From Cytophaga aurantiaca DSM 3654 (lineage in GTDB: Bacteria; Bacteroidota; Bacteroidia; Cytophagales; Cytophagaceae), in the NCBI RefSeq assembly GCF_000379725.1, contig NZ_KB903623.1, forward strand, positions 62,001 to 126,000: a stretch of DNA of 64,000 nucleotides, read 5' to 3'. The notes under the pieces are model-generated. The model made no database searches. It had not been told where the DNA came from and saw nothing but the letters and a program-made list of their open reading frames with translations. Positions 18,015 to 49,008 of the stretch are shown here, in pieces; the first letter of the stretch is position 1; each line of letters opens with the position of its first letter. The translations under genes were made by a program, and so were the position numbers.

Positions 18015-18021
18015 TAATTAT

Positions 18022-19059: not shown

Positions 19060-20184
19060 ATGAAATTTGTCGTTTCTTCAAATGCTTTACTAAAGCAATT
19101 AACCGCTATCAACGGCGTTATTACAACTAATCCAGTTGTACCTATTTTAGAGAATTTCCTATTTGAAATAGGAGATGGAATGCTTGTTGTTTCAGCTTCT
19201 GATCTTCAAACATCCATGATTACTGAAATTGCAGTTGAAGCGAAAGCAAAAGGCAGCATTGCAGTACCGGCTAAAATTTTATTGGATACATTAAAAGGCT
19301 TACCGGAACAACCTGTAACATTTACAATCGATCCTGAAACATACAGTATTGAGATCAGCTCTGATAACGGTCGTTATAAATTGTCTGGTGAAAATGCTAC
19401 AGATTTCCCTAAAGTACCAGGTGTTAAGAATGGCTACAGTGTAGATATTTCAACTGAGATATTGAATCGTGCAATTTCTTCAACAATCTTTGCTGCAAGT
19501 AACGATGAATTGAAACCGGCAATGACAGGTGTTTACCTTTCATTAACAGAATCAAATGCTACGTTTGTTGCAACAGATGGTCACCGTTTGATTCGTTACA
19601 GACGTACAGACATTGTATCTGAAATGGCGAATACATTGATCATTCCTAAAAAAGCATTGAACTTATTAAAAGCTTCATTGCCTTCAGAAAATACAAATGT
19701 TAAAATTGAATACAATGCTTCAAATGCATTCTTCAGTTTCAATAATATTAAAATGATCTGTCGCTTGATTGATGAGCGTTTCCCGGATTACGAAAACGCA
19801 ATTCCGGTAGACAATCCGAATGTTCTTACAATCGCAAGAACAGATATGATGAACTCATTAAAGCGTATCTCTATCTATGCAAACAAAACAACGCATCAGG
19901 TGCGTTTGAAATTAGCAGGAAGCGAATTGCAGATCTCTGCTGAAGATTTAGATTTCTCAAACGAAGCAAACGAACGTTTGTCATGTGAGTTTGAAGGTCA
20001 GGATATGGAGATTGGATTTAATGCAAAGTTCTTAGTTGAAATGTTAAGTAACTTAGATACACCTCAGATCTCAATGCATTTCTCTGCTCCAAACAGAGCA
20101 GGTATCATTACTCCTGCAGATAAAGACGAACACGAAGATGTATTGATGCTTGTTATGCCTGTAATGTTAAACAGCTACGCGTAA
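19060..20184 (+). CDS. dnaN: DNA polymerase III beta subunit (sliding clamp)
   Basis: The beta clamp is a ring that tethers DNA polymerase to its template. The 374-residue length and three-domain layout fit: domain 1 opens with MKFVVSSNALLKQLTAINGVI, domain 2 has VYLSLTESNATFVATDGHRL (about residues 160-180), and the C-terminus ends in the partner-binding region EDVLMLVMPVMLNSYA, which matches the conserved MPVRL-type tail. It is separate from dnaA in this window. Confidence 0.96.
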   Translation: MKFVVSSNALLKQLTAINGVITTNPVVPILENFLFEIGDGMLVVSASDLQTSMITEIAVEAKAKGSIAVPAKILLDTLKGLPEQPVTFTIDPETYSIEISSDNGRYKLSGENATDFPKVPGVKNGYSVDISTEILNRAISSTIFAASNDELKPAMTGVYLSLTESNATFVATDGHRLIRYRRTDIVSEMANTLIIPKKALNLLKASLPSENTNVKIEYNASNAFFSFNNIKMICRLIDERFPDYENAIPVDNPNVLTIARTDMMNSLKRISIYANKTTHQVRLKLAGSELQISAEDLDFSNEANERLSCEFEGQDMEIGFNAKFLVEMLSNLDTPQISMHFSAPNRAGIITPADKDEHEDVLMLVMPVMLNSYA

Positions 20185-31218: not shown

Positions 31219-34200
31219 TTATCTGATAATTGTTACCGAACCTGTTTGTTTGTAAGGTCCTTTGAATTGAGCTCTACCTTCGTATGTCACGATCCATGGA
31301 TACGTTCCGGATGGCATTGGTTCACCTAAATAATTACCATCCCATGTTGCATTTTTATCCGTTGACATGAAGATTACTTCACCCCATCTGTTAAAGATCA
31401 TGATCTTGTAGTTTTGTTCGTATTTACCAAAACCTCTGAAGAACTGATCGCCACCAGCTGTTCCAGGTGTAAATGCTGTAGGTACATCAATGTGTGGTGC
31501 ACATATTGAGAATATAGTTGTTTTGTCTGTTATAGAACAATTGAATTGGTTTGTGATTCGAACAACATAAATTGTATCCTCTATTGGTGATGCAATCTTA
31601 ATTCCTGTAGTTACAGGTGATTCACTGTTCCATTTGTAAGTTGTATTCGGAAGAGTACCTGCATCTAATGTTACAGTATGATCCGTATCCGGACAGTATG
31701 TATATTGATCCGGCAAACTTGAGGTAGGATACGCTGCAAAGGCAATTACATTGGTTGAAGTGTCTTTACATTGATCGATTGAAATTGCACCTCTATATGT
31801 ACCAAGTGAATTTACAATAATGGTAGAATCTGTTGCAAAGATTGCTCCTCCATCTTTTCTCCAATCAAAGCTCAATTGCAGGAATTGATCTAAGTTAGGG
31901 ATGTTTGTTGGTCTTGCAGTTAATTTAACCGTCAATCCCTGACAAGAAGTAGAATCAAGTGACACCATTTGTGGTATTGGAAGTCCTATAACATAAGCAC
32001 TATCATGTGCGATACAGCCTGTAATTGGATTCTGTGCTTGCAAGTCGTATTTGATTGTGTCATTCGGTACAGAAACAATGTTTAATGTATTACCTGCACC
32101 CGATGGAGCTCCATTTAAACTCCAGGTGATTGTTGCATTCGCAGGGAATGCACTCGCCGTAAAGACACCATTTCCGCAGGCAATAATATCTTTCTTACTA
32201 ATAATTGGAACAGGATTCACTTTTACCTGACCGGTTGAACTACAGTTTGCAAAAGCAAATTCAATTTTAAATGTGCCAGTATCCGGTACAATTAAGAAGT
32301 CTTTATTTTGTCCTGTCATAATACTTCCGTTGTTGAACCACTGATATATACCAGGTACAGTTGGTTGCGGAGCAGGATTAGATTGAACTAATAAATTCTC
32401 ACTGTAACATGCCGGATTTGGTGACAAGGTGAACGAAGGCAATGTGAATGTTACAATATTTACTGTATCTCTGGATACACAACCTTTCGGATCTGTTGCT
32501 TCAAGAATACGTTGTGTATTGCCGCCAACAGTAAATGTATGTGACTTAGAGTTTGCAGGCTGTACAATCGTACCTGTATTATCTGTCCATGCATAACTTA
32601 CACCAGCCTGCGTATTATTTGCAGATACAGTGATTTGACTACCAACACAAGAGAATTGATCCTGTCCTGCATTTGCAATCGGCAGTGGCTCAATCAATAA
32701 TATTGCATTGCTTGTTACATCATTACATGTTCCATAATTAGATGCTGTAAGAGTAAGGGTTACTCTACCTGCAGTGATATCGGCAGCTGTAGGATAGTAT
32801 GTAGCAGTTAATGTAGAATTATTTACTGCAAACACGCCTGCACCTGAACTTGACCATGTAGTTGATCCTGTCAATGCGCTTGTAACCGTACCTGTTAATG
32901 CAGCTCCCTTAGCAGTCTCGCATATAATAGGAGCACCTGCAGAAACAACCGGAATAGGAGCAATGGATACAATTAACGTATCCGTTCTTGAACTACAAAT
33001 TCCGGAATTCGCTGAAGTAGCATATAATTCTATTGTACCCGTTGTTGCATCTGCTTGAGATACATTGTAGGATACCGGATTTCCTGAAGAGTTCGGAGAG
33101 AATGTTCCTGTACCGTTAGTTGTCCATGATACACCTGTAGCATTGTTAATATCTGCGCTTACCTGAATGGTACCTGCGTCTGCGCATATAGCCTGATCTG
33201 CTGATGCAAGTACTACCGGTACAGGTTGTACAGTAATTTTTATGGTGTCATAAACCGGTTTACATAAACCCTGATTTGTTGTTTTAGCAAACACGTTGAA
33301 TACTTTATTTGTTGTATCCGCATTCGACATGAGGTATTGTGTGCTAAGTCCTGCTGCAGGGAAAAAAATACCCGAACCTGAAGAAGTCCAGTTAACGCTG
33401 GTAGCCACAGTTGTTGCTGCAGTTAAGTTAACGGATTTATCTGCACACACAAGCTTGTCCGGTCCAAGAGATAACGTTGGTTTTGGAGTAAATCGTAGAT
33501 CTAAGAAGTTAGAATACGCATTACATGTTCCATTACCTGTTGTTACTAAGGTTAGCGTTATTCTTCCTTTTTTTCTATCTGCCGCAGATGGGACATACAC
33601 CGCATTTAAGTCTGAAATACTAGGAGAAAATATCCCTGTACCCGATGTTGACCATTCACCACCCAATGCATTTGTAATAGTAGGAGCTAATTGGATGTAA
33701 GCTGTATCTGCACACAATGGAGGCAATGGTGTACCTGCACTAACTGTAGGTGTTGGTGTTATTGTCAATACCATATCATCGAAGCTTGGAGCACAAATAT
33801 TATTATTTGTAGAAGTTAATCTAACTGTTATACCTCCTGCAGCAATATCTAATGGATCCGGAATGAAAGTCGGATTTAAATCTGTAGGATCTGGATCAAA
33901 AGTACCACGACCGGTAGAACTTGTCCAAATACCTGTTCCTCCAAGTCCACCTACAATTCCATTAAGAGGGTAGAAAAGGGCATCCGCACAGGCCGTTTGG
34001 TCAAAGCCTGCATTTACAAGAGACGCTGGGGATTGAAGAATCGTGATAGAGAAGTATTTTTCAATTTCTTTACATGGATTAGATCCGACAGTAGAAGCAT
34101 ATATAATAACGCCACCATTTGATTGGTCAGCTAAAGATGGTGTATAGACTGTTGGTGAACCCGTAGTTGTACTGAATGTACCGGTACCTGTTGTTTTCCA

Positions 34201-37200
34201 GATCAGTGAAGTTGTATTGGTTACATTCGCTGTAGCAGTAATTGTATTTCCTGTACAGATTGAATCCTGCGGAACAGAACCTCCGATTGTTGGTTTTGGA
34301 TTTAACGTTATAGCAACATCGTTTGTATACGCATTACATGTACCATTACCCGTTGTAGTCAGAGTAAGCGTAACATTACCAGATGATTTATCTGAAGCTG
34401 AAGGAATGTATTGAGCATTCAACGAGTTTGCATTTGGTGTGAATGTTCCTCCCGATGGCGATGACCATGTTCCGCCTGTTGCTACGGAAACCAAGCCGTG
34501 TAATGGAATAGATGTTGTATCTGTACAAACTGTAATCGGCGAGCCTGCAGAAACAGCAGGTTTTTTCGTGAATGTAATCAGCATCTGGTCAGTCGCTGCA
34601 GGACAGCCTGCTAATTGTCCGGTAGTTGATACTTGTATTGTAACCGAACCGGCAGTCGTATCTGCAGGTATTGCAACATTGTATGTTGTATTTGCTGAAG
34701 TTGTACTGCTATACGTACCGTTAGCTGTTACATTTGACCATTGTATGCCTGTTGCATTAGAGAATATTGAACTGATATTTACAGTTGCAGCATCTCCACA
34801 AACAATCTGATCTACACCTGTTGTTACTTTAGGAGCAGGTGCAATTAATAAGTGTACAGTGTCTGCTGCTACTTTACATGCAGGATTTGTTCCACTTGAT
34901 GAAATTGTTAAAACAACTTCTCCGCCATTTTTATCAGATTGGGATGGAGTATAAGTTGGACTAATAGTATTTCCATTTGTAAATGTACCAGAACCGGAAG
35001 TAGACCAGGTTACACCTGTTGAACTTACTCCATTCGTAGAGCCTGATAAATTAACAGAAGGAGAGTTTGCACAGATTTGTGCTACAGTACCTGCACCAAC
35101 TACCGGGCCATCTAAAATAGTATATGTTACATTGTCAACAGCTGGTGTACAAACACCATTGTTTGTTGTAGTAAGGGTTAATGTAACAGTTCCTGCCGTA
35201 ACTTCTGCTGCACTTGGTGTATAGAGAGCATTTAATGTTTGATCATTTGGACTGAATGTTCCCGTATATCCAGACCATTGTGCAGATGAACCTGATCCTT
35301 GTAATGCAATTGGGAAATCTGTGCTACAAACCGATTTGCTATTTCCTGCATCTATTGGAGGAGCGGCAACAAACGTAATTGTAACAATATCTGAAACGTT
35401 TGAACAACCACTGAATGCAGTACCTGTTACTTTTAATGTAACGCTTCCTGCTATAACATCAGCTGGGGAAACATTATATGAAGTAGCAATATTTGTAGTA
35501 GTAGTTAGAGAACCGTTTCCGGATATGATCTGCCAGCTTACACTGGAAATATTTGTTGATGAACCATTGATGTTCACAGTTGTAACACTATTACATTCCT
35601 GAAGATCATTACCAGCAGAAATTGTAGCTACCGGATTGAATTTCAATGTAACATTGTCGGAGACTTGTTTACATAAACCATTCCCGGTTGAAACTAAGGT
35701 CAATACAACGGTTCCTACTGTTAAATCAGAAGTAGAAGGAGAGTAGTTGGGATTCAATGTTGAGTTGTTAGGTGCAAAGCTACCGCTACCGCTAGTTGTC
35801 CATGCCCCTCCGGTTGCATTGTTAACAATGCCTCCTAAAAGTAATTGATCGACATCCGCACAAACTGTTCTATCAACACCTGCATCAACTACAGGTTTAG
35901 GTGCTATTGATACTAGTATATCATCATGAACTGCTTTACATGTTCCGTTATTGGTTGTTGTCAATGTTAATGTAACGGATTTTGCAGTTGTATCAGCATT
36001 TGAAGGAATGTAATTAGCTCCTGTTACCAATGCACTTGGTGTAAATATACCCGACCCAGATGTTGTCCATTTAACACCACCGGCAATGGTAGAGCTTCCA
36101 GACAATTTAACGCCATTTGTATCTGCGCATATAGATATATCTGAACCTGCATTCACTGTAGGTATTGGTGTTATTGTTATCTGAATTGTATCGCGCACAG
36201 GTAAACATAAACCATTACCGGTTGTTACTACAGCAAGTTTAACCAGGCCTGTTGTTTTATCAGCAGTAGATGGGAAGTAGGTAGGTTGAGTTGTTGTATT
36301 ATTAGGTCCAAATACACCACTGCCGTTTGTAGACCATAGTACTCCTGTAGCAGTCGTAACTGTAGCCTCATCTAATTTAACACCTAAACTATCACCACAG
36401 ATTGTTTTATCAAAGCCTGCATTTAATATTGGAGCAGGTGTGATTGTTAATGTTAAGAAGCCTTGTGCAGGTTTACATGTTCCGTTACCTGTAGTAGTTA
36501 TAGCCAATACAACAGATCCTGCCGCTTTATCAATGGCAGAAGGTGTGTAAATTGTTGTCGTTGAAGTAGGGCTTCCAAATACACCAGAGCCTGAAGTTGT
36601 CCATTTAACACCTGAAGCAGCAACAGCCGGAGTGAATCCACCTGTTACACTTGTAACAGCACTATTTGCACACACAGTTTGATCTGAACTGATTGTAACA
36701 ACAGGTGCAGGAGTAATTGTAATTACCATATTGTCTGATACAGGAGGACAAACACCATTAGTTGTTGATGTTAATGTAAGTGTAACAGAACCGCTTGTTT
36801 TATCTGCAGCAGTTGGAGAATATACAGCATTTAGATCTATTGTACTTGGGAAGAAAATACCTGTTCCCGATTTAGTCCAGATACCACCACCGGCATTTGT
36901 AACTAAACCTGCAAGTTGTACATAAGCACTATCTCCACAAATAGTTTGAGATGGGCCAGCCTCAACAATTGCAATTTTCTTAAATGTAATCGTTACATTT
37001 TTACTAACAGGTGTACATGTTCCGTTACCGGTAGAAGTTAATGTAAAGATTACGGATCCGGCTGTTGTGTCAGCCTGAGTTGGTGTATAGGTAGTTGAAA
37101 GTGCATTTGCGTTGGCAAATGAACCGGTACCATTAGAAGTCCATGTACCACCACTTGCATTTTGTACTGTACCGTTCAATGTAATAGCAGATGTTGTTGA

Positions 37201-40200
37201 ACAAACAGTTTGCGGTAAACCTGCATCAACAATTGGTGCCGGCGCAATTGTTACCTGTACCTGAGCTGATTTAGCTTTACATGTTCCATTACCAGTTGTT
37301 TTTACAGTCAAGGTTACTAAGCCGGATGAAATATCAGCTATAGATGGTGCATAAGTTGTTGATGCGGAAGTTTGACTCGCAAATGTGCCTGTACCGGATG
37401 TAGTCCAGTTTACAGCAGTTGCTGTCACGATCGTTGCATTAAGAGTTACAGTAGAATTGTTTTCACAAACTGTTTGTGTTGAAGGAACAGATACTGTCAC
37501 AATAGGAGTAATTGTCACTGTAAGTGTTTTTACAATCGGATTACATGTACCGTTGCCAGTAGTAGTAGCGGTCAATGTAACACTTCCACTAGATCTATCT
37601 GCAGCAGATGGGATGTAATGTGCATTGGCAGTTACATTGTTAGGTGAAAATGTTCCTGTTCCATTACTTGTCCATTTTACGCCGGTTGCAATAGTGAACG
37701 TTGCTCCCAATTGTACATAAGCACTATCACCACAAATGGTTTGATTTCCACCTTGATTCAATGTAGGTGCTGGTGTTAAGGTATGGGCTACGGTACTTGT
37801 CACAGCAGGACAGCCGCCATTTCCTGTTGAAGTTAATAAGAAGGATACCGAACCTGTTGTTATGTCTCCTGCTGTAGGAGTGTAGGTAGTAACCAAACTT
37901 GTCGGAGAAGCTATTGAGCCGCCTCCAGAAGTGATAGACCAAATACCACCTGTTGCTGTTGTAACAGATCCATTCAATGTAATGCCGGAAACATCTGCAC
38001 AAAGTGTTTGATTAGGGCCTGCACTTACTACAATTGCTGGCGTGATTGTTAAGGTAATTGTTTTAGCAACCTGTTGACAGAAACCATTACCAGTTGATGT
38101 CAGTGTCAATTGCACAGAGCCATTTGTTCTGTCAGTAGTGGAAGGTGTATACGATGCATTAAGTGTATTGGCATTCGGAGTGAATGAACCTGTGCCGTTT
38201 GTTGTCCAGATACCACCGGTTGCATTTGTAACAGTTCCATTTAATGGGTAAGCAGCTAAGCTTCCACACATTGTTTGACTTGCAGCACCTGGATTTACAA
38301 TAGGACCTGCCGGGATTGTAATGGTGATCTGATCCGTCTTTGTTGGACATGCACCACTTGGAATTGTACTGATAGATAAGGTAACCGTACCTGCAGAGAT
38401 CTCTCCAGCAGATGGATTATACGTAGTTGTTAATGAATTGACATTACCAAACGTACCACCACTTGTAGCCCAGCTAGCAGGAGAGCCCGTTGCAGAAAGA
38501 TTTATTGGAAGTTCTGTTGAACATACAATCTGATTGGCTCCTGCATTAATGGAAGGTACCGGAGTGTAAGTAATTGTCATGGTATTAGATACCGGTTGAC
38601 ATAATCCGTTTCCTGTACTTGTTAATTTCAATGTTACAGATCCGTTTGTTACATCCAAGGTTGACGGTGTATAGGTAGTTGATGTATTGTTCGCATTTCC
38701 AAACGTTCCTGTACCGGATACTTTTGTCCATGTTCCACCACTTGCACCTGTAACAGTTCCTGTTAAATTAGAGACTGTAGCAACCGTACCGCAGACTATC
38801 TGATTTGATCCTGCATTTACAGTAGGTGCTGGCGCGATTAGTATTTGTACATTAGATGATACGGGTGAACAAGTTCCATTACCTGTAGTTGTTACAGTCA
38901 ATGATACAGACCCCGCATTTACTTCTGCAGTAGTTGGTACATATGTGGTAGATAAAGCAGTAGGACTTGTAATAGTTCCTGAACCGCCAGACCACAATAC
39001 ACCTGTTGCCAATGTTTTTGTTGTAGAGATAGATGCTGTCGGAGCATCTGCACAGACATTTACAGGTGTTACAGGTGTTATGGTAGGTGAAGCTGTAAAT
39101 GTAATGGTTGCAGTTCCTGAAACCATAGTACAATTACCATTTCCTGTTGATTGTAAAGTTAAATTTAAAGATCCACTTGAAATTTCAGCTGCAGTAGGAG
39201 TATAGGTAGGGTTCAATACAGTTCTGCTTGGTGTGAAGGTTCCTGCGCCACCAACCCATTGTCCGCCTGATGCTACAGTAACTGAACCATTTAAACTAAC
39301 TGTTGCATTGTTTGAACATACCGTATAAGTTCCCGGTGTTACAACAGGAGTAGGAGTAAACGTCATTGTAGTCGTTGCGGATACTGGTGAACAATTTCCG
39401 TTATTGGTTGTAGTTAACGTTAACGTAACAGTTCCTGCAATTAAATCGTTTGGACCTGCTGTATATGTTGTGTTTACAGAAGTAGATGTGCCAAATGTTC
39501 CATCTCCGCCGGTAGTCCATTTAACACCGAAGCCTGTAGGTCCGGTTGCTGTTCCATTAAATGTAGCTGTTGGATTGTTTCTACAAACACTTCTTGAAGG
39601 TCCTGCATTTACTGTAGGTTTGGGCGTAATTGTAACCACAACCTGATCGACAACAGGTAAACAGGTGGCTTTATTAGCAGTAACCGTTAATGTTACCGAT
39701 CCATTAGTAATATCAGTTGCTGTAGCTGTATAATTTGTTACAGGATTACTTGGTGCGGAGAATAAACCTCCGGTTGGTGATGACCATGTTACAGTTGATA
39801 TACCTACAACAGATCCCGTTAATTTTCCTGTAGGGTTGTTTTCGCAAATTGAAATTGGCAAACCTGCGTCAACAGTAGGAGCAGGGTTAAAGCTGACAAG
39901 GGCAGTATCTGAAGTTGGAGGACAAATACCTCCTGTTGTTTGCAAAACAACACCTGTAAGACCACCTGCAATTTCACCGGCAGAAGGGGTATAAGTAACA
40001 GGGCTGACAGTTGTGTTCGGAGAGAATGTTCCGCCATTACCTATCCATTTTATACCTGTAGCTCCCGAAAATGTACCTGATAAATTAAAGGAAGGATTGT
40101 TATCACATACGGAAGCCGGAGCAGTAATAACCGCTGTCGGAGCCGCATTTAACGTGATGGTCATGTTGCTTGTTACAGGATTACAAGTTCCGTTCCCAGT

Positions 40201-42804
40201 TGATGTAAGTGTTAAAACAACACTTGAACCTGCTAATTCAGCAGCACTTGGTTTATAGTTTGCTGTAAGTGTCGTATTATCCGGTGTGAATTTACCTGTA
40301 CCGCCAGACCAGATACCACCGGTTGCATTGGTAACTGTACCTGCGAGATTTACAGAATCATTTTTACAAATGGTTCTGTCTATACCGGCACTAACAATTG
40401 GAGACGGATTGATAGTAACATTCACATTGGATGTTACAGAATTACAGCCGACTTTACTTGCAGTTAATGTTAAAGTTACTGTTTTAGGATTTCCTGTTTT
40501 TTCAGCAGCAGAAGGAGTATACGTAGTACTTAAAGCTCCAGGACTTCCAAATGTTCCGGTTCCTCCGGTCCAGGTAACGCCGGTTTGATTCGTAGCTGTA
40601 CCAGTCACCGTTGCAACAGGATTGTTAACACATACTATTACTGGTGATCCCGCATTAACTGTTGGTGCAGGCGTGTATGTTAAAGTTACAGTACCGGATG
40701 CCTCAGGACATAATGTACTACCGGTTGTTGTTATTGTTAATGTAACTGAACCTGCACTTATCTCTGCAGCAGTAGGAGTGTAAGTTGCATTTTTAGTTGT
40801 ATTGTTTGGTACATATGTACCTGCACCACCTGTCCAGATAATTCCAGGAGCCACCGTAAAGTTACCGGCTAATGTCATGGTTGGATTGTTGGCACAGGCC
40901 GATTGCGGACCGCCTGGTGTAACAGTTGGGCCACCTATAAATGTAATTTTGATGGAATCTTTTATGGCTGGACAGGCTCCGTTACCTGTTGATGTAAGGT
41001 ATAGATATATAGATGCTTTACCTAAGTCAGCAGTAGAAGGAGTAAACGTTGTTACAGGAGAAGTTGCACTTGCAAAAGTTCCTGTAACACCAGCTTTAAC
41101 AGACCATGTAGCCCCACCAGCACCGGTTTGTGCACCATTCAAAGAGATAGGGTCGGCATTTGTACAGCTATTAATATCGTTTGCAGAACCAGTGCCAGGA
41201 GTTGTAGTATTTGCATCAACACTTATACTCCCCGGTACATTATAGGTAGCATTTACATTTATGTAATTAGCATACCACCAGGTATTGACGGTTTTATTAT
41301 CACCCCAGTTTGCTGTAGTTGGATTACTTGATGGAGGCATAGCACCTGCCGTAACAGAACCAAAACCATGACAGCCTGTAGTTGCTGTTGGGATACCTGT
41401 TGTACAACCAGCAAGATTACTTCCTCCGCCTATACCGGTATCATCCCAGAAAAGCAATGGTGGCGGGCCGGCAGGTCTTACCAGAGATACAATATATCCA
41501 TATGGATGATTTTCTACGTCAAATAAAGGTAAGTGTGTTATACCATTGAAATAATCAAGTCGCATATCCAGCGCTGTACCTGGTGTAATTAAATTTCCTA
41601 ATCCATCGCGGCTATCCCACGGAATACAGTTTGCACCAACAACCAAGGTTTGTTTAATCAGTACATCGCTTGTACCAAATTGATATCCCGGTACGCCATT
41701 AAAATTTAATAGTAATTCTGTACCACCGGCTTTATCAACAACAATATTTATACATCGGTTGTTTACATCACAACCCGTGACGGTAATATTATTTTTATTA
41801 AGGATATCACCAAAAATCCCTGTAGGGAAAGAGCATATATCTGGATTGTTTAGAAATATCCTATAATCCGCGTAAGTAGAATTCCCTGCAACAGACCTTC
41901 TAATCGTAGCGGTAGGTCCTGTTGGCGCAACACCTGTAGGGTTACATGAAATTGCAAACCCAAAAGGCCTGATTCTATTAAAATCAAGACCCGTTACAAT
42001 ACCATCCGTTGAGTATACAAACATTTTACAGATAAATGGGTTGCCTCCGGCATTCACATTTATATCCCATGTTTTTGAGAATAATCTACCAAGAATTCTA
42101 TTTCCACCTAAGCCTGAACCAGCCACAAGCTGTGCAGCTGTAGGGGAAGGTAGGTCTGATACAGTTAAATCAAAAAAACGAATACGGGTTTTTGATTTTT
42201 GCTGTCCATTTATTAGTGCTATATCGGCGGCAGTTAATGCTACCGATTCGTCAAAAACTTTATTAGTTGCAGGCATCCCTGCATTACTTTTCCTGTAAAA
42301 TTCTATGTAAAAGTCACCTTGTTCACCTGGTGTAAAATGTAAAGGTGTATAACCACCCGTTCCACCAGCGATATTGTTTGGACCTGCAACTGCTTGTGCC
42401 CAACTTGAAATTGAACCAGCTCCAGCATTTGTTACTTGTTGCCAACCTGTGCCTGAAGTTGGGAAAACAATCGTACCACTTGGAGAAATAATTCTATACC
42501 AAAGTGTTGCAGGAGCAGCTAAATCTGCTGTTTCATAGTTCATCCCAAAATAAGCTTCTTCAGGATTACAAATATTAAAATATAAACGTTTTGTTCCTGG
42601 ACAGCCAAACGTAGATGAATTTCTGGTAACATCACCGTTATCCCAAATTTGCAATACACCCTGGTTATCAGAAGCTAAGGTAGGTGTTAACTGTGCAGTA
42701 CCTTCTGCAAAAGCAAACACACTTATAAATAGCAACGGAATTTGGAAAAGCGCCTTTAGGATATTTTTGGTTTGAAGTTGGGAAGTAGTATATAGTGTCT
42801 TCAT
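31219..42804 (-). CDS. giant repeat-rich secreted protein with type-B T9SS C-terminal domain
   Basis: This 3,861-residue protein has a signal peptide (about residues 15-37, LKALFQIPLLFISVFAFAEG) and a unique N-terminal region of about 520 residues. About 32 tandem modules of 84-90 residues follow (roughly 540-3370). They share a pattern of P-x-V-x-A-G near the start, a conserved Cys, a W-T/S-x-x-G-x-G-x-F centre, Y-x-P-S, and T-L-T-T-T-G-N-G-x-C at the end. Then come PKD-like segments and a C-terminal domain (about 3775-3861, VPTAFTPG, IMIFNRWGEVIF, PSGTYPWIVTYEG) typical of the gliding-motility-associated type-B T9SS signal. It should be exported by T9SS and act at the surface, probably as an adhesin. 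The modules are Cys-paired and Thr/Ser-rich. It follows the TPR/PD40 gene with a 68-bp gap. Confidence 0.93.
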   Translation of the reverse strand: MKTLYTTSQLQTKNILKALFQIPLLFISVFAFAEGTAQLTPTLASDNQGVLQIWDNGDVTRNSSTFGCPGTKRLYFNICNPEEAYFGMNYETADLAAPATLWYRIISPSGTIVFPTSGTGWQQVTNAGAGSISSWAQAVAGPNNIAGGTGGYTPLHFTPGEQGDFYIEFYRKSNAGMPATNKVFDESVALTAADIALINGQQKSKTRIRFFDLTVSDLPSPTAAQLVAGSGLGGNRILGRLFSKTWDINVNAGGNPFICKMFVYSTDGIVTGLDFNRIRPFGFAISCNPTGVAPTGPTATIRRSVAGNSTYADYRIFLNNPDICSFPTGIFGDILNKNNITVTGCDVNNRCINIVVDKAGGTELLLNFNGVPGYQFGTSDVLIKQTLVVGANCIPWDSRDGLGNLITPGTALDMRLDYFNGITHLPLFDVENHPYGYIVSLVRPAGPPPLLFWDDTGIGGGSNLAGCTTGIPTATTGCHGFGSVTAGAMPPSSNPTTANWGDNKTVNTWWYANYINVNATYNVPGSISVDANTTTPGTGSANDINSCTNADPISLNGAQTGAGGATWSVKAGVTGTFASATSPVTTFTPSTADLGKASIYLYLTSTGNGACPAIKDSIKITFIGGPTVTPGGPQSACANNPTMTLAGNFTVAPGIIWTGGAGTYVPNNTTKNATYTPTAAEISAGSVTLTITTTGSTLCPEASGTVTLTYTPAPTVNAGSPVIVCVNNPVATVTGTATNQTGVTWTGGTGTFGSPGALSTTYTPSAAEKTGNPKTVTLTLTASKVGCNSVTSNVNVTINPSPIVSAGIDRTICKNDSVNLAGTVTNATGGIWSGGTGKFTPDNTTLTANYKPSAAELAGSSVVLTLTSTGNGTCNPVTSNMTITLNAAPTAVITAPASVCDNNPSFNLSGTFSGATGIKWIGNGGTFSPNTTVSPVTYTPSAGEIAGGLTGVVLQTTGGICPPTSDTALVSFNPAPTVDAGLPISICENNPTGKLTGSVVGISTVTWSSPTGGLFSAPSNPVTNYTATATDITNGSVTLTVTANKATCLPVVDQVVVTITPKPTVNAGPSRSVCRNNPTATFNGTATGPTGFGVKWTTGGDGTFGTSTSVNTTYTAGPNDLIAGTVTLTLTTTNNGNCSPVSATTTMTFTPTPVVTPGTYTVCSNNATVSLNGSVTVASGGQWVGGAGTFTPSRTVLNPTYTPTAAEISSGSLNLTLQSTGNGNCTMVSGTATITFTASPTITPVTPVNVCADAPTASISTTKTLATGVLWSGGSGTITSPTALSTTYVPTTAEVNAGSVSLTVTTTGNGTCSPVSSNVQILIAPAPTVNAGSNQIVCGTVATVSNLTGTVTGASGGTWTKVSGTGTFGNANNTSTTYTPSTLDVTNGSVTLKLTSTGNGLCQPVSNTMTITYTPVPSINAGANQIVCSTELPINLSATGSPASWATSGGTFGNVNSLTTTYNPSAGEISAGTVTLSISTIPSGACPTKTDQITITIPAGPIVNPGAASQTMCGSLAAYPLNGTVTNATGGIWTTNGTGSFTPNANTLNASYTPSTTDRTNGSVQLTLTSTGNGFCQQVAKTITLTITPAIVVSAGPNQTLCADVSGITLNGSVTTATGGIWSITSGGGSIASPTSLVTTYTPTAGDITTGSVSFLLTSTGNGGCPAVTSTVAHTLTPAPTLNQGGNQTICGDSAYVQLGATFTIATGVKWTSNGTGTFSPNNVTANAHYIPSAADRSSGSVTLTATTTGNGTCNPIVKTLTVTITPIVTVSVPSTQTVCENNSTVTLNATIVTATAVNWTTSGTGTFASQTSASTTYAPSIADISSGLVTLTVKTTGNGTCKAKSAQVQVTIAPAPIVDAGLPQTVCSTTSAITLNGTVQNASGGTWTSNGTGSFANANALSTTYTPTQADTTAGSVIFTLTSTGNGTCTPVSKNVTITFKKIAIVEAGPSQTICGDSAYVQLAGLVTNAGGGIWTKSGTGIFFPSTIDLNAVYSPTAADKTSGSVTLTLTSTTNGVCPPVSDNMVITITPAPVVTISSDQTVCANSAVTSVTGGFTPAVAASGVKWTTSGSGVFGSPTSTTTIYTPSAIDKAAGSVVLAITTTGNGTCKPAQGFLTLTITPAPILNAGFDKTICGDSLGVKLDEATVTTATGVLWSTNGSGVFGPNNTTTQPTYFPSTADKTTGLVKLAVVTTGNGLCLPVRDTIQITITPIPTVNAGSDISICADTNGVKLSGSSTIAGGVKWTTSGSGIFTPSALVTGANYIPSNADTTAKSVTLTLTTTNNGTCKAVHDDILVSIAPKPVVDAGVDRTVCADVDQLLLGGIVNNATGGAWTTSGSGSFAPNNSTLNPNYSPSTSDLTVGTVVLTLVSTGNGLCKQVSDNVTLKFNPVATISAGNDLQECNSVTTVNINGSSTNISSVSWQIISGNGSLTTTTNIATSYNVSPADVIAGSVTLKVTGTAFSGCSNVSDIVTITFVAAPPIDAGNSKSVCSTDFPIALQGSGSSAQWSGYTGTFSPNDQTLNALYTPSAAEVTAGTVTLTLTTTNNGVCTPAVDNVTYTILDGPVVGAGTVAQICANSPSVNLSGSTNGVSSTGVTWSTSGSGTFTNGNTISPTYTPSQSDKNGGEVVLTISSSGTNPACKVAADTVHLLIAPAPKVTTGVDQIVCGDAATVNISSIFSNATGIQWSNVTANGTYSSTTSANTTYNVAIPADTTAGSVTIQVSTTGQLAGCPAATDQMLITFTKKPAVSAGSPITVCTDTTSIPLHGLVSVATGGTWSSPSGGTFTPNANSLNAQYIPSASDKSSGNVTLTLTTTGNGTCNAYTNDVAITLNPKPTIGGSVPQDSICTGNTITATANVTNTTSLIWKTTGTGTFSTTTGSPTVYTPSLADQSNGGVIIYASTVGSNPCKEIEKYFSITILQSPASLVNAGFDQTACADALFYPLNGIVGGLGGTGIWTSSTGRGTFDPDPTDLNPTFIPDPLDIAAGGITVRLTSTNNNICAPSFDDMVLTITPTPTVSAGTPLPPLCADTAYIQLAPTITNALGGEWSTSGTGIFSPSISDLNAVYVPSAADRKKGRITLTLVTTGNGTCNAYSNFLDLRFTPKPTLSLGPDKLVCADKSVNLTAATTVATSVNWTSSGSGIFFPAAGLSTQYLMSNADTTNKVFNVFAKTTNQGLCKPVYDTIKITVQPVPVVLASADQAICADAGTIQVSADINNATGVSWTTNGTGTFSPNSSGNPVSYNVSQADATTGTIELYATSANSGICSSRTDTLIVSIAPIPVVSAGAPIICETAKGAALTGTVTSALTGSTTWSSSGAGVFAVNNSTLTATYYPTAADITAGRVTLTLTASNYGTCNDVTSNAILLIEPLPIANAGQDQFSCVGSQITVSANNTQAGVSYAWTDNTGTIVQPANSKSHTFTVGGNTQRILEATDPKGCVSRDTVNIVTFTLPSFTLSPNPACYSENLLVQSNPAPQPTVPGIYQWFNNGSIMTGQNKDFLIVPDTGTFKIEFAFANCSSTGQVKVNPVPIISKKDIIACGNGVFTASAFPANATITWSLNGAPSGAGNTLNIVSVPNDTIKYDLQAQNPITGCIAHDSAYVIGLPIPQMVSLDSTSCQGLTVKLTARPTNIPNLDQFLQLSFDWRKDGGAIFATDSTIIVNSLGTYRGAISIDQCKDTSTNVIAFAAYPTSSLPDQYTYCPDTDHTVTLDAGTLPNTTYKWNSESPVTTGIKIASPIEDTIYVVRITNQFNCSITDKTTIFSICAPHIDVPTAFTPGTAGGDQFFRGFGKYEQNYKIMIFNRWGEVIFMSTDKNATWDGNYLGEPMPSGTYPWIVTYEGRAQFKGPYKQTGSVTIIR
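32690..41175 (-). repeat. about 32 tandem coding repeats of roughly 265 bp
   Basis: By eye I count 32 Trp-centred modules in the translated sequence between these approximate limits, giving an average near 88 residues. The protein-level pattern is well kept while each copy differs, and short DNA words around the T-G-N-G-x-C turn recur many times. Such an array can change length by recombination or replication slippage. It also creates many long opposite-strand open frames that are shadows. Confidence 0.9.
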
Positions 42805-42872: not shown

Positions 42873-44480
42873 TCATTCTTTTATGATGTCGGGACAGAGA
42901 TTAATGTTGGTTTCACGTTCCTGATATCCACTCAATTCTTTTGTTGTAATTACGTCATCACAAACTTTGTAATTCGGAGATTGTATTGATATTCTGTACT
43001 TACCGCCTTCTGGCAATGCCATAATGTATTTTCCTGTTACTTTATTAGAATGATATATACCAACAATTGAATTATTGCCAGTATCTACAACTTCAATAGA
43101 TGCACTAATTGGCTGTTTAGAAATAGAATCCTGAATTACACCTACAATTACCAATACATCCAATACTTTTGTTTGTTCAATCGTAGCCATATAAATATCC
43201 CGATCTCCAAATCCTTCAGGACGTATAGATGCAAAATAAATACGTCTGCCATCAGCAGACAAACTAAAGTGGATATCATCGTGCGCTGAGTTTAATGGAT
43301 AGCCAACATTCACAGGCTTATCCCATGATATTGTTGAATCAGACAACGATTTTGAAACGAACATATCAAAACCTCCCATCGAGTTATGTCCGTTAGAACT
43401 AAAGTATAATGTACGTCCATCGGAATGAAGAAAAGGTGAATCTTCATCGTATTTTGTATTGATGACAGGCCCAAGGTTGATAGGTCTGGCCCATTCATTA
43501 TTTACTAGTTTTTTTGAAATGTACAAATCCAGTCCACCATAACCACCTGGCCTGTTGCTACTGAAAATTAAAAAACTTCCATCTTTTGTCAGACATGCTG
43601 ATGGCTCATAAAATTTTGAGTTTACTTCACCCAACAATTCTTCTGCAGGTAGCCATGTTACTCCATCCAATTTTGATAAAAGAAAACCCGCTTCATTTTC
43701 ATAGCGGTAAATTAATAATTGCTGGCCATCCGGGGTTAAGGAAACACTTGCGTCATGCCCTATAGTATTTATTGAAGAGCCCATATTTATTGCTGTAGAC
43801 CAGCTCGAATCTTTTTTTGAAGAGATGTAAACATCTTCAAAATACAATCCGTCTTCCGTGTCAATTAAACCACCCGTTGTTTCAGGTCTGCAGGATGTGA
43901 AGATTAATTCTTTCTCATCTAATGTTAAAACGGGAGCATATTCAGGATAATTACTGTTGATTTTCGGGCCTAAATTCTGGATGTCAATTATCAATTCATC
44001 TTTGATTAATTGCTTGCCATTTTCACACATTTCAATTTCTCTATATATATCCTTTATTATATAGGCATATTGTTTCTTCTTTTTATATAAATGAGAAAGG
44101 CAAAGTTCATACTCAACAATGGCATCATCAAAACGATGAGAAAGATGGTAGGCTCTTCCAAGATAATAATGTAATGTAGGAGGATATTGGCTTGATTTTA
44201 ATTTGCATTGTTCTAAATATTTCAATGCATTCTTCTGATCACCAGTTGTGTTAATATAGCATACCCCAAGTGGAAATATATACTTAGGAACATTAGGATA
44301 TAAACTATCGAGGGTTAAAAACAAGGGCAATGCATGGTAATAATCTTTGCTTTTGAATGTATAATCAGCATTTGTTTCTAATTCAACCCTGGAAAGAGAT
44401 GTTTGAGAAAAAACATTGGTGCTGAATAATGCAATACTTATGATAAGTATAAATATTGAACCGATTTTCTTTGAAAACAT
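42873..44480 (-). CDS. TPR/PD40 beta-propeller protein lacking an OmpA domain
   Basis: A 535-residue exported protein: signal peptide (IGSIFILIISIALFSTNVFSQ), TPR-type helices (about 30-165), five PD40/WD40-like propeller blades (about 180-430, for example FLIFSSNRPGGYGGLDLYIS, LYFSSNGHNSMGGFDMFVS), and a carboxypeptidase-regulatory-like beta domain (about 440-530). It aligns end to end with the first 500 or so residues of the protein at 46104-48029 but stops where that protein begins its OmpA domain. PorE-type proteins link T9SS to peptidoglycan through OmpA; this paralogue would lack that anchor. It lies just upstream of the giant gene on the same strand. Confidence 0.88.
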   Translation of the reverse strand: MFSKKIGSIFILIISIALFSTNVFSQTSLSRVELETNADYTFKSKDYYHALPLFLTLDSLYPNVPKYIFPLGVCYINTTGDQKNALKYLEQCKLKSSQYPPTLHYYLGRAYHLSHRFDDAIVEYELCLSHLYKKKKQYAYIIKDIYREIEMCENGKQLIKDELIIDIQNLGPKINSNYPEYAPVLTLDEKELIFTSCRPETTGGLIDTEDGLYFEDVYISSKKDSSWSTAINMGSSINTIGHDASVSLTPDGQQLLIYRYENEAGFLLSKLDGVTWLPAEELLGEVNSKFYEPSACLTKDGSFLIFSSNRPGGYGGLDLYISKKLVNNEWARPINLGPVINTKYDEDSPFLHSDGRTLYFSSNGHNSMGGFDMFVSKSLSDSTISWDKPVNVGYPLNSAHDDIHFSLSADGRRIYFASIRPEGFGDRDIYMATIEQTKVLDVLVIVGVIQDSISKQPISASIEVVDTGNNSIVGIYHSNKVTGKYIMALPEGGKYRISIQSPNYKVCDDVITTKELSGYQERETNINLCPDIIKE

Positions 44481-44619: not shown

Positions 44620-45669
44620 ATGTTTAGTAAAATTTATTTACGTATATTCATATTAACGGCATTATTTACCTCATTTGGGTATAATAATGCTTATTCACAA
44701 GATATTCAATTTTCTCAGTTTTACGCAGTTCCCTTGTATCATAATCCAGCATTTGCAGGTAGTGTACATGCACCTCGGGGAATTGTTCATACCCGTTTAC
44801 AATGGCTTGGCTTAGATGCGAACTATAAAACATATTATGCATCTGGAGATACATATCTTGATAAATACAAAAGTGGCATTGGTTTTCAAGTTTTACATGA
44901 TATTCAGGGCTCTAGTGTATATGCTTCAACACAATTCTCTTTTTTATATTCATACGAAATTCCTGTTTCTAAAAAGTTTACCGCTCGATTAGGCTTACAA
45001 GCATCCGGCATTCAACGTACACTCGACTATACAGGCTTAAGATACCCAAGCCAATTTGATGATCCGAATGGTTACAAAGGCGGTGGAACTCATCCTACAG
45101 GTATTCAAAGTCAATTATATGCAGATGTTGGTGCTGGAACCGTTGTATATTCAGATCGCATCTGGGGTGGTTTTTCTGTAGAGCATTTGAACACGCCTGT
45201 TCAATCGTTTGCAGGAGCAACAAAAGATAATTTACCAATGAATTTTCAGTTGACAGGGGGCTATAAAATACCTCTTTCACAAAGAAAGTATCTTGCTTAT
45301 ACAGAAGATGCAACGGAAATAAGTATTACTCCTACATTTCATTATAAATCTCAAGGCAAGTCGGATCAATTAGATTTGGGACTTTATGGTATGTACAATC
45401 AGTTAATGGCGGGCGTTTGGTATAGAGGTATACCTGTTAAGCACTACGATAACAATTATAAGATACCGAATAGAGAGTCTGTGGTTTTTCTGGTAGGATG
45501 GATGTATAAAACATGGAGTTTTGGATATAGCTATGACTTAACAATCTCTAAGTTGACGGCAGCAGGCCCTGGTGGATCGCATGAATTTAACATCACGTAC
45601 ATTCATAAACCGGTTAAGAAACATAAACCAATGAGACGCTTACCTTGTCCGAGTTTCTATAAACACTAA
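44620..45669 (+). CDS. PorP/SprF-family type IX secretion outer-membrane protein
   Basis: The 349-residue protein has a signal peptide (RIFILTALFTSFGYNNAYSQ) and the family hallmark DIQFSQFYAVPLYHNPAFAGS immediately after it, then a beta-barrel (GIGFQVLHDIQGSS, LYADVGAGTVVYSDRIWGGFSVEHL, VFLVGWMYKTWSFGYSYDLT). SprF is needed for secretion of the SprB adhesin in Flavobacterium johnsoniae, and type-B T9SS substrates generally require a cognate SprF-like partner. The giant type-B protein nearby is the obvious candidate partner. It diverges from the TPR/PD40 gene. Confidence 0.92.
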   Translation: MFSKIYLRIFILTALFTSFGYNNAYSQDIQFSQFYAVPLYHNPAFAGSVHAPRGIVHTRLQWLGLDANYKTYYASGDTYLDKYKSGIGFQVLHDIQGSSVYASTQFSFLYSYEIPVSKKFTARLGLQASGIQRTLDYTGLRYPSQFDDPNGYKGGGTHPTGIQSQLYADVGAGTVVYSDRIWGGFSVEHLNTPVQSFAGATKDNLPMNFQLTGGYKIPLSQRKYLAYTEDATEISITPTFHYKSQGKSDQLDLGLYGMYNQLMAGVWYRGIPVKHYDNNYKIPNRESVVFLVGWMYKTWSFGYSYDLTISKLTAAGPGGSHEFNITYIHKPVKKHKPMRRLPCPSFYKH

Positions 45670-46103: not shown

Positions 46104-48029
46104 ATGTATAAGTACATTTATATTTTAGCAATTATACTCATTGCGAGTAATAATTTGGCAGTTGCACAATCCATTCCTAAGGAGGCGCGCAATCATTTAG
46201 AAGAAGGCAAAATGTATTACGATCAAGCAAATTACCTCAAGGCGCTTGATGAATACCTTGCTGCTTATGCATTTGTGCCAACAGATCCTGGGATAAATTA
46301 TTCGATTGCTTTATGCTATATAAATACCTACAGCTACGATAAAGCTTTAAAATATTTGTTGCCAGCTAAAAAAGCAGGTATTGAAGATCCAATGCTTGAG
46401 TATTATTTAGGGGTATCTTATCATGCAAATGCCAAGATTGACGAGGCAATTTTAAATTTACAATCCTTTAAAGCCAAACTAAGACCGGCGGATAAAGAAT
46501 TATTAGCTCAGACGAATCGTTACCTGCGTTATTGTGAAAATGCAAAATTATTAATGAGTAAACCTGTTGTAATGAAAATTAGCAACTTGGGTAAAACAAT
46601 CAATTCTGCCTATCCTGATTATAATCCGGCTATCAGTGTAGATGAATCGACGATTATTTATACTTCCAGAAGACCCAATTCTACAGGAGGTTTGGTATCT
46701 GAAATGGATGGACATTATTTCGAAGATATCTACATATCCAATAAACTAGCAAACAATACCTGGAAAGAAGGAACGCAACTGGATCAAACAATTAACTCTG
46801 CAAATCACGATGCATGCGTTGGTTTATCCTCTGAAGGACAAACTATGATCATATATAAGGATGATGGCGGCGGAGATCTTTTCTATAGTCAATTAACAGG
46901 TGCATCCTGGGGTAAACCGGTTTCGTTTGGGAAGTTCATTAATACGGATGGTTGGGAACCTTGCGGCAACTTTTCGCCGGATGGGAATTATTTGTTTTTT
47001 GTTTCAAATAAAAAAGGAGGTTTTGGTGGGACCGACATATATTGGTCTAAGAAGAACGCAGATGGTACCTGGGGAGCACCTGTAAATATGGGCAAAGAAG
47101 TAAATACTGCTGAAGATGAATTTTCACCTTACTTACATGCTGATGGAAAAACATTTTATTTCAGTTCACAAGGACATAATTCAATGGGCAGTTTTGATAT
47201 ATTTCAATCAACAATTGATTGGTCAACTACACCTGTGCTGATTGTTTCTCCGCCAACGAATCTAGGATACCCGATTAATACAGTAGGAGATGAAATTTAT
47301 TTTGTTTGGTCGGCGGATAATAAACGTGCATACTTTTCTTCTGCCCGTGAAGGAGGATTGGGCGACAAGGATCTTTATTTGTTAGAACGTCCGGAAGCCA
47401 AGGCTGCATTGGTATTGCTAAAAGGAACCGTTTCTGATTGTAAAACGAAAGAGTTTATTCAAGGAAATATTAACGTAACCGATATTGAATCCGGTAAACT
47501 GATTGGGAAATATGTTTCAAATAGTTCTACTGGCAAGTTCGTTGTTACCCTGCCGGCAGGAAAGAATTATGCGATTGCAGTTGAAGCTAAAGGATATTTA
47601 TTCCATTCTAAAAATATAGATATTCCCAAGCTGGAAAATTTTAAAGAGATCGACGATGAAATCTGTCTCGAGAAAATGGATATTGGTTCAACGATTGTAT
47701 TGAACAACGTATTCTTTGATGTGAACAAAGCTACATTAAGAAAAGAATCAGAGGTAGAGTTGGATAAATTATTCGATATATTAAGTAAGAATCCTAAAAT
47801 TAAAATTGAAGTGTCCGGCCACACAGACAGTGATGGTGAGACTCAAGCTAATTTGACTTTATCTGATGCGCGTGCACACGCTGTAATGAATTACTTAATC
47901 GCTAAAGGCATCAGTGCGGATCGCATCATTTATATCGGACATGGTGAAGACAAGCCTGTTGTTCCAAACGACACCCCTGAAAATAAACAATTGAATAGAA
48001 GAACTGAAATTAAGATTCTTGCAAATTAA
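46104..48029 (+). CDS. PorE-like TPR/PD40/OmpA protein
   Basis: A 641-residue exported protein: signal peptide (YIYILAIILIASNNLAVAQ), TPR helices (about 25-150), five PD40 blades (about 165-430, for example YLFFVSNKKGGFGGTDIYWS, FYFSSQGHNSMGSFDIFQS), a CarboxypepD_reg-like beta domain (about 440-525), and a C-terminal OmpA peptidoglycan-binding domain (about 530-641, VFFDVNKATLRKESEVELDKL, VSGHTDSDGE, LSDARAHAVMNYL, NRRTEIKI). This order matches PorE of type IX secretion. It probably anchors the nearby PorP/SprF-like protein or its substrate to the cell wall; that pairing is inference. The IS3-family element begins 83 bp after its stop. Confidence 0.88.
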   Translation: MYKYIYILAIILIASNNLAVAQSIPKEARNHLEEGKMYYDQANYLKALDEYLAAYAFVPTDPGINYSIALCYINTYSYDKALKYLLPAKKAGIEDPMLEYYLGVSYHANAKIDEAILNLQSFKAKLRPADKELLAQTNRYLRYCENAKLLMSKPVVMKISNLGKTINSAYPDYNPAISVDESTIIYTSRRPNSTGGLVSEMDGHYFEDIYISNKLANNTWKEGTQLDQTINSANHDACVGLSSEGQTMIIYKDDGGGDLFYSQLTGASWGKPVSFGKFINTDGWEPCGNFSPDGNYLFFVSNKKGGFGGTDIYWSKKNADGTWGAPVNMGKEVNTAEDEFSPYLHADGKTFYFSSQGHNSMGSFDIFQSTIDWSTTPVLIVSPPTNLGYPINTVGDEIYFVWSADNKRAYFSSAREGGLGDKDLYLLERPEAKAALVLLKGTVSDCKTKEFIQGNINVTDIESGKLIGKYVSNSSTGKFVVTLPAGKNYAIAVEAKGYLFHSKNIDIPKLENFKEIDDEICLEKMDIGSTIVLNNVFFDVNKATLRKESEVELDKLFDILSKNPKIKIEVSGHTDSDGETQANLTLSDARAHAVMNYLIAKGISADRIIYIGHGEDKPVVPNDTPENKQLNRRTEIKILAN

Positions 48030-48159: not shown

Positions 48160-49008
48160 TTAAATAGCATCACATTTTTGTGATGCTATTTTGCTTTTAT
48201 ATGTTCTCATTTTGATTTTAGATTGATTATGCATCTGTTGAGGCGTTTCATAATAATTTGAATAATGTGGTCTTTCCGTGTTGTAAATATCAATTGACTC
48301 AGCAACCAATAAACGCATTAACTGTAAATCCTTAATGCTTATTCCCTCTAAGAATTCTTGTTTAAGTATACCATTCACGCGTTCTGCAACAGCATTTTGA
48401 TAAGGATCATATTTTTCAGTCATACTGCAGCTAATATTATTGCCTATTAATAGCTCTTGATATTCATTGCTGCAATATTGAAGTCCTTTATCGGAGTGGT
48501 GTATTAAATCAGCATGATGATAAAAACGATTCTTTATTGCCATTGTCATTGCTGCAAATGCACCTGCAGTTGTCAAGTTATTGGAAACATTAAACCCCAT
48601 AATCTTTTTAGAATATGCGTCTGTTACCAATGCTAAATACATCGGATATGCCCTAGTTCCAATATATGTGATGTCAGATACAAAAACCTGCTCAGGCTTA
48701 TGTATCAATAAATTTTCGATTAAATTTTTATGTTTTTTAAATCTGTGATGCGAATTGGTTGTGACATGATATTGTCGCTTAGGTCTTATTTGCAAATGAT
48801 TTGCTTTCATTATAGCAAACAGTTTATCTCTTCCTACATCAAGTTCATTGAGGTTTATGTAAAGTATTTTATACAATTTTTTACCTCCGATTCGAGGCAT
48901 ACGCAATCGTATGGCTTTTATCATAGAAACAACTTTACAAGCTACCTGTAGGCTCTTTTGCTTTGATTTAACTGATCTATAATAAACTTGCCTATTCATC
49001 CCGAGCAA
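48160..49008 (-). CDS. IS3-family transposase OrfB (DDE integrase domain)
   Basis: A 282-residue protein with an HTH-like region (about 30-70) and an rve/DDE catalytic core: VSDITYIG (first D), HHSDKGLQYCS (second D) and NAVAERVNGILKQEF (catalytic E), the usual IS3 spacing. The visible start at 49006-49008 is a TTG, and the frame is open upstream into the end of orfA, so the active product is probably an OrfAB fusion made by programmed -1 frameshifting. Confidence 0.92.
   Translation of the reverse strand: MLGMNRQVYYRSVKSKQKSLQVACKVVSMIKAIRLRMPRIGGKKLYKILYINLNELDVGRDKLFAIMKANHLQIRPKRQYHVTTNSHHRFKKHKNLIENLLIHKPEQVFVSDITYIGTRAYPMYLALVTDAYSKKIMGFNVSNNLTTAGAFAAMTMAIKNRFYHHADLIHHSDKGLQYCSNEYQELLIGNNISCSMTEKYDPYQNAVAERVNGILKQEFLEGISIKDLQLMRLLVAESIDIYNTERPHYSNYYETPQQMHNQSKIKMRTYKSKIASQKCDAI

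Follow-up and report, generated by a model that had tools for sequence, protein, structure and literature searches.

Several described systems resemble the one treated here, a giant gene and its neighbours in Cytophaga aurantiaca DSM 3654 (contig NZ_KB903623.1; the stretch of 64,000 nucleotides that was analysed is referred to as the window), whose product, P0001, is a genuine giant surface rod and type-B substrate of the type IX secretion system (T9SS). In Flavobacterium johnsoniae, the giant repeat protein SprB ends in a type-B domain and has its own carrier, SprF; the Cys-X-Cys tail of SprF bonds GldK on the moving track, the second cysteine forming the bond (PMC12635249). In that species, no PorE-like gene accompanies the genes of mobile type-B substrates (PMC12618676), and PorE-linked substrates are thought to be static (PMC12618676; PMC9143113). 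Porphyromonas gingivalis provides the precedent of a PorE-PorP-PG1035 complex (PMC9143113). GhpA, the grappling hook protein A of Aureispira sp. CCB-QB1 (PDB 9flp, 9fls, 9flu-9fly and 9g8b), a protein of 5,898 residues built from immunoglobulin (Ig)-like units, is reported as a heptamer (PMC13319060, citing Lien et al. 2024). Lastly, RTX giant adhesins such as MpAFP and SiiE are likewise secreted rods of great size; they are made of Ig-like domains in tandem, whose linkers are reported to be stiffened by calcium (PMC7493085).

The locus shares with SprB and SprF a giant repeat protein, a type-B domain, a dedicated carrier of the PorP/SprF family (P0002) and a cysteine in the carrier tail. Its modules are not Pfam SprB repeats, however, the tail of P0002 holds one cysteine and not Cys-X-Cys, PorE-like genes adjoin, and the carrier gene does not lie directly downstream as it does in F. 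johnsoniae. Like the P. gingivalis system, it has a carrier, a PD40/OmpA protein and a type-B substrate, encoded together here; unlike in that system, the substrate is a 37-unit giant, the tail cysteine of the carrier is conserved, and there is a second PorE-like protein lacking an OmpA domain. With GhpA, P0001 shares Ig-like units, an alternating cysteine ladder, the fold and, when the full-length protein is the query, related sequence; GhpA is larger, and its match to the sorting domain reaches only 10.5 bits. From the RTX adhesins P0001 differs in its secretion system and in a predicted disulfide staple in place of calcium linkers. The kind of protein is already known; what is new, or at least absent from the literature searched, is the ordered ladder, with its predicted staples, and the conflicting cues to its anchoring.

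On balance we think it likely that P0001 is a rod held in the outer membrane by its carrier, with a head at the tip and disulfide-locked junctions. The protein would be exported by the T9SS, and its C-terminal sorting domain would be seated on the neighbouring PorP/SprF-type carrier. The shaft would consist of 37 Ig/PKD-like units, and the N-terminal head, displayed at the tip, would probably bind a surface or another cell. A disulfide would lock every joint of the shaft, running from the first cysteine of one unit (C1, in the A'/B turn of unit i) to the second cysteine of the next (C2, in the F/G turn of unit i+1), and the last C1 of the shaft would pair with a cap cysteine, Cys3768.

Architecture of the rod and fold of its modules

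P0001 is encoded by a single uninterrupted open reading frame (ORF) of 3,861 residues on the minus strand (window 31219-42804); a first-pass annotation of this DNA had given the coordinates and length correctly and was silent on the strand. The protein contains 85 cysteines and 50 tryptophans, very regularly spaced. A head of about 530 residues precedes 37 units, each with a cysteine, a tryptophan about 20 residues on and a second cysteine, and the type-B sorting domain follows. Where the annotation counted about 32 tandem Cys/Trp modules of 84-90 residues, we find the same arrangement with 31 strong modules among the 37 units (the others being one divergent and five PKD-like units) and a slightly wider pitch of 85-92. 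In an alignment of the strong modules, m02-m32, residues C18, W38, G44 and C80 are invariant and mean column identity is 46%; pairwise identity among m01-m33 averages about 36-37% (range 17-60%). The type-B assignment, also made by the annotation, rests on a C-terminal domain above both curated cut-offs (TIGR04131, 44.2 bits against 35; PF13585, CHU_C, 44 bits against 27) and on a PorP/SprF carrier gene one gene away in divergent orientation. An assembly artefact is unlikely because G002, a same-genus genome that consists of a single contig, encodes a 3,851-residue orthologue within the same order of four genes.

Searched whole against Pfam and NCBIfam, P0001 gave only CHU_C/TIGR04131 above cut-off, with PKD_4 at 18.2 of the required 27 bits. 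The 31 modules taken singly (scans that report E-values, without curated cut-offs) yielded no significant match: the best in Pfam was the K319L-like PKD family, PF22352, at E 0.0021 in three modules, and the NCBIfam matches were chance-like, the best being an unrelated beta-lactamase model at E 0.0044 in one module. The SprB repeat family, PF13573, was absent from the matches of P0001 at E up to 10, and the same library detects it in L085, a protein discussed below. AlphaFold2 modelled two adjacent modules, with 30 module pairs from the window as the alignment, at a predicted local distance difference test score (pLDDT) of 97.8 and a predicted TM-score of 0.83, as Ig/PKD-like β-sandwiches with a short helix. 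The module search and the two-module prediction were among the checks that the annotation had proposed. Its view that the modules are distinct from PKD and HYR repeats holds at the level of the family, with the qualification that they have an Ig/PKD-like fold and that GhpA is their closest relative of solved structure. From PF22352 and other PKD domains, which share the fold and match weakly in sequence, the modules differ by a cysteine pair in the A'/B and F/G turns.

The top structural match of the two-module model was GhpA (Z 12.7, 166 residues aligned, root-mean-square deviation 5.4, 21% identity), followed by the PKD structure 2yrl at Z 9.8. Full-length P0001 also had GhpA as its sole match among PDB sequences, at E 3.3e-24, a value summed over repeat-to-repeat matches with large composition-bias corrections. 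Shorter queries missed it: the module profile had a best E of 0.096, a module pair matched nothing, four modules matched phage Ig-like tail proteins (E 1.5e-4), and the C-terminal part of P0001 had a best E of 1.6, to RecT. Within a 556-residue stretch of GhpA, Ig-like units carry cysteines at steps alternating between 54-58 and 26-28, with tryptophan present, as in the ladder of P0001. Because of the fold match, the full-length sequence match and these alternating steps, we place the module, by sequence and model, in the same general class as the GhpA units.

Pairing of the ladder cysteines

The model places C18 (C1) where strand A' ends and turns to B, and C80 (C2) in the F/G turn. Since the strands alternate in direction, the two cysteines are predicted to lie at opposite poles of the fold. 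At each junction, the C18 pole of one module points to the C80 pole of the following one, so that a bond C1(i)-C2(i+1) would be natural and a bond C1(i)-C2(i) would not.

Conservation of the cysteines does not by itself distinguish the two schemes. Among 462 modules from 35 proteins, both cysteines occur in 444 of the 447 in which both sites were readable, cysteines displaced by a few columns being accepted. Each of the three exceptions is the last module of its array and has kept C2 and lost C1. Two-by-two tables of co-loss, within and between modules, were uninformative because losses are so rare, and array ends therefore served as the test. We collected 71 ladder proteins, defined by at least three long steps and tryptophan in 60% of them; the limits for a long step, 45-76, had been widened from 48-76 after a common step of 47 was seen, and the tryptophan condition was added. 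The sample is not random, since it comprises P0001 and ORFs from loci around carriers and modules, and it includes fragments or near-identical pairs (L050/L052, L063/L064, L087).

None of the 61 intact C-ends finishes on a complete terminal pair. A cap cysteine follows the last pair by 10-16 residues in 28, the next cysteine comes only after 74-105 residues, with no C1, in 24, and nine end otherwise. Later cysteines are odd in number in 55 of the 61; after clustering, the same holds for 9 of 10 clusters at 30% identity, 15 of 18 at 40% and 31 of 36 at 50%. At the other end, with residues 1-27 left out of the count as signal peptide, a script found a single upstream cysteine in 17 of the 21 ladder proteins whose N-termini are nearly cysteine-free; in the remaining four, a cysteine follows shortly behind the presumed signal peptide. 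Eleven of the 21 form a single family of orthologues, and another is a fragment. Two arrays that begin right after the presumed signal peptide have one cysteine more, 11 residues ahead of their first C1. The family of eleven orthologues consists of SprB-repeat-type proteins from Cyclobacteriaceae; C2 is missing from their first unit, which has C1 and tryptophan, and C1 from their last, a PKD domain with tryptophan and C2. All ten cysteines of L085, the member on which the Pfam check of this family was made, pair only if C1 of each unit bonds C2 of the next.

Taken together, the predicted position of the cysteines at opposite poles and the fact that no array ends on a self-contained pair favour disulfides between neighbouring modules, and constitute strong indirect evidence for them. 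The annotation had instead let each module close its own disulfide. That arrangement, which would give the same rod with less rigidity because its linkers would be free, seems unlikely to us. The near-universal presence of both cysteines is expected under it too, and the even number of head cysteines shared between P0001 and its orthologue fits it; against this stand the predicted poles and the C-ends, both in their lack of a final pair and in their odd counts. It would also leave Cys3768 without a partner and create two orphans in L085, about 450 residues from each other, and two in a further ladder protein, L150, at a distance of nearly 600. Pairing of the cysteines adjacent in sequence, C2(i)-C1(i+1), was rejected: it produces four orphans in L085, whose first unit has no C2 and whose last has no C1, and leaves C2 of the last two modules of L150 partnerless.

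Several observations weigh against bonding between neighbours. One cysteine of P0001 is unpaired in either scheme, and with eight head cysteines in common with the orthologue, C611 would have no obvious partner if the junctions are stapled. Parity on the N-terminal side is weak (odd in 43 of 67 ladder proteins), and 6 of the 61 C-ends are even. Tryptophan stands at the expected place in 19 of 24 end stretches classed as lacking C1 and in 17 of 24 classed as lacking C2. Many of the sampled proteins are homologous to one another, and the poles were read from the strand order of the model, not from sulfur-sulfur distances.

If bonding between neighbours is correct, these proteins would form a class of giant surface rods stiffened covalently at every joint, unlike the calcium linkers of RTX adhesins. 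An Ig-like domain is about 4 nm long, so that 37 units would make an arm of about 150 nm, and the staples would help to explain how it bears load. The literature searched, from which most subscription journals fell outside, yielded no inter-domain disulfide staple of this kind; the staple may already be visible in the GhpA structures. There is perhaps an even chance of a wider rule, in which P0001, the SprB-repeat proteins and GhpA, as T9SS rods of Bacteroidota, are all covalent Ig ladders stapled C1(i)-C2(i+1) and finished at the cell end by a cap cysteine or a unit lacking C1, and in which rods of Cytophagales may hang on carriers with a single tail cysteine that couple to the gliding track. 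The Cyclobacteriaceae proteins would be good minimal targets for the disulfide question.

Conservation of the ladder and exchange of the head

In the family, 18 of 19 genomes have the module; in an even sample of 296 genomes from the phylum, at least 14 do (E <= 1e-8), a lower bound given that scoring stopped at 18 candidates per genome. In the C. aurantiaca genome, the module profile has 64 matches, distributed over the giant and nine other reading frames; two of the nine, on contigs C36 and C42, lie at contig ends, have identical terminal residues and may be one gene.

Genome G002 encodes, besides the orthologue L126, a paralogue of 3,674 residues, L125, elsewhere and beside a second copy of the carrier. 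For every one of 33 modules of P0001 the best partner in the orthologue is the module at the same position (34 of 35 when all units called by the hidden Markov model are counted). The modules of the paralogue are collinear with those of P0001 at an offset of +1 in 34 of 35 cases, and in a third genome, where the giant is cut off after 15 modules, 13 of the 15 are in register. Between P0001 and the orthologue, the nonsynonymous divergence (dN) is 0.195 and the synonymous divergence (dS) 1.5, close to saturation, over the whole gene, and the orthologue keeps 83 of the 85 cysteines and 49 of the 50 tryptophans. From this conservation in register, the dN and dS values and the retained residues we infer that the order and number of the modules are under selection. 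Recent repeat expansion in the giant gene was rejected, as Tandem Repeats Finder found no tandem repeat left in its DNA. Two relatives merit mention. L172 (G189:C1:3791000-3805000, 2487-9794; 2,435 residues) has ten modules, nine with the same score of 52.2 bits, and by sequence looks like a recently homogenised array, unlike the ordered ladder of P0001. L182 (G007:C1:1856000-1875900, 1609-19095; 5,828 residues) has 58 module matches and a near-unbroken 26/62 cysteine rhythm.

The orthologue's head is 74% identical to that of P0001 and the head in the third genome 54%; at about 40% identity the head recurs on short-shaft proteins of three to five modules, one of them in the C. aurantiaca genome. 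The paralogue has the same shaft and a head with no BLAST match to that of P0001 at E 1e-3. By sequence, head and shaft are exchangeable and the paralogue is a natural head swap, as expected for a tip on a stalk. The model of the head has a pLDDT of 64.9 and no Foldseek match at E <= 0.001; its VIA structure matches, to generic β-sandwiches, span only residues 294-490. The main Pfam match of the head is Inhibitor_I42, seen in 5 of 11 members with a best E of 0.00073; for the first member it falls below cut-off. In the C. aurantiaca genome, another protein, L152 (G000:C12:38500-42500, 257-3703), has a module array after repeats that look RCC1-like by eye, with TLWTWG motifs.

Carrier, neighbouring genes and possible function

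The features of the locus and of related proteins are collected in Table 1. The genes for P0002 and P0004 diverge from those for P0003 and the giant. We call P0003 and P0004 PorE-like because both fall below the 600-bit cut-off of the NCBIfam PorE model, at 149 and 317 bits, respectively. Of the TPR-PD40-OmpA architecture, P0004 has PD40 and OmpA by Pfam; its TPR part, unlisted by Pfam, is suggested by the match to the PorE model. Carrier and PorE-like genes stand beside the giant in the same order in G002 and in G003, where a contig end cuts the giant.

Table 1. Features of the giant-rod locus (positions in the window unless a contig is given) and related proteins
Feature	Position	Strand	Basis or remark
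Giant T9SS substrate P0001, ORF of 3,861 residues	31219..42804	minus	Reading frame; orthologue L126 (3,851 residues)
Signal-peptide-like N-terminus, residues 1-36	42697..42804	minus	Judged by eye
N-terminal head, residues 37-529, β-rich	41218..42696	minus	Conserved in long- and short-shaft relatives; model pLDDT 64.9
Divergent first unit m01, residues 530-619	40948..41217	minus	54 bits with module profile (hidden Markov model)
31 Ig/PKD-like modules m02-m32, residues 620-3368	32701..40947	minus	C18, W38, G44 and C80 in each
Five PKD-like Cys/Trp units m33-m37, residues 3369-3770	31495..32700	minus	Cys/Trp spacing; domain scan
Cap cysteine 3768	31501..31503	minus	12 residues past last C2; adjoins sorting domain
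Type-B T9SS sorting domain (TIGR04131/CHU_C), residues 3772-3849	31258..31491	minus	Profile matches
PD40 protein P0003, PorE-like without OmpA domain (TPR part inferred)	42873..44480	minus	68 bases upstream of giant gene
PorP/SprF-family outer-membrane carrier P0002	44620..45669	plus	PF11751 253 bits; TIGR03519 266.6 bits (cut-off 90.55)
Single Cys343 in carrier C-tail (RRLPCPSFYKH)	45646..45648	plus	Seven residues from end
PD40-OmpA protein P0004, PorE-like (TPR part inferred)	46104..48029	plus	PorE model 317 bits
Paralogue of giant, L125	G002:C1:2222000-2241999, 5397-16421		Same shaft; head without BLAST match
Cyclobacteriaceae SprB-repeat-type proteins L068, L071, L074, L077, L079, L080, L082, L084-L086, L088			ORFs of about 540-640 residues

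The carrier is 88% identical in protein sequence to its homologue at L036 in the same-genus genome G001. Among 89 distinct tails of carrier homologues, 70 have a cysteine within the last 22 residues and none has Cys-X-Cys; a CP motif occurs in 43 of the 46 distinct tails from homologues at least 40% identical to P0002. Nine of the 19 PorP homologues in the C. aurantiaca genome have a tail cysteine, and the one beside gldK has none. GldK itself is encoded on contig C15 (470.9 bits over its pieces) and has four cysteines besides that of the lipobox.

By analogy with the published cases, the locus carries both cues, a tail cysteine (mobile) and two PorE-like genes (static). The annotation had proposed a long, stiff surface fibre for adhesion or gliding; the long surface rod stands, and adhesion or gliding is plausible, with conflicting cues from the carrier and its neighbours. 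We regard a mobile and a static rod as about equally likely, each falling somewhat short of an even chance. In the first case, P0001 would be a gliding adhesin: the tail cysteine of the carrier would bond GldK on the track as that of SprF does (PMC12635249), and the rod would drag the cell. The conserved tail cysteine, the presence of GldK in the genome and the lack of a tail cysteine in the PorP homologue beside gldK point this way. Another adhesin is also being sought in Cytophaga hutchinsonii, whose SprB homologue, CHU_2225, is stated to be dispensable for gliding, with data not shown (PMC8564354); the locus offers candidates. On the other side, gliding by SprF requires Cys-X-Cys, which the homologue tails lack, and the two PorE-like genes are at odds with the mobile substrates of F. 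johnsoniae (PMC12618676).

Alternatively, carrier and P0004 could pin the rod to peptidoglycan, as a static adhesin for attachment to cells or fibres. P0004, with PD40 and OmpA, adjoins the carrier here and in G002 and G003, and the P. gingivalis complex and the suggestion that substrates linked to PorE do not move (PMC9143113; PMC12618676) provide a precedent. However, a static rod leaves the conserved tail cysteine unexplained, and P0003, directly upstream of the giant, lacks a peptidoglycan-binding domain. Moreover, the long-array relatives L048, L060 and L063 have a carrier and no gene like P0003 or P0004 in the stretch fetched, whereas L050 and L052 do have one. A rule that a PorE neighbour means no tail cysteine fails in the C. 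aurantiaca genome: among the 15 PorP genes, out of 19, whose surroundings were read, four stand next to a PorE-like gene, and a tail cysteine is present in two of these and absent from the other two. The GldJ family was useless as a gliding marker, with matches in 58 of 59 genomes, none above cut-off. A locus that combines "moving" and "static" cues can show which one decides.

A grappling-hook-like filament, in which chains would lie side by side as in GhpA to catch prey or cells and the ladder cysteines might bond between chains, is improbable: the structural and full-length matches to GhpA and the shared cysteine ladder speak for it, yet GhpA is the larger protein, the full-length match is repeat-to-repeat with strong bias corrections, the C-terminal stretch matches weakly, shorter queries find phage tail proteins or nothing of GhpA, and Cytophaga is not known to be predatory.

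Further genes were noted. An rve integrase-core, transposase-like gene lies on the minus strand at window 48160-49008, just beyond the PorE-like gene P0004. Elsewhere in the C. aurantiaca genome, at L156 (G000:C1:322000-328825, 4359-5321 and 5549-6511), two tandem PorP-type genes end in CPSNFW, not PCPSF.

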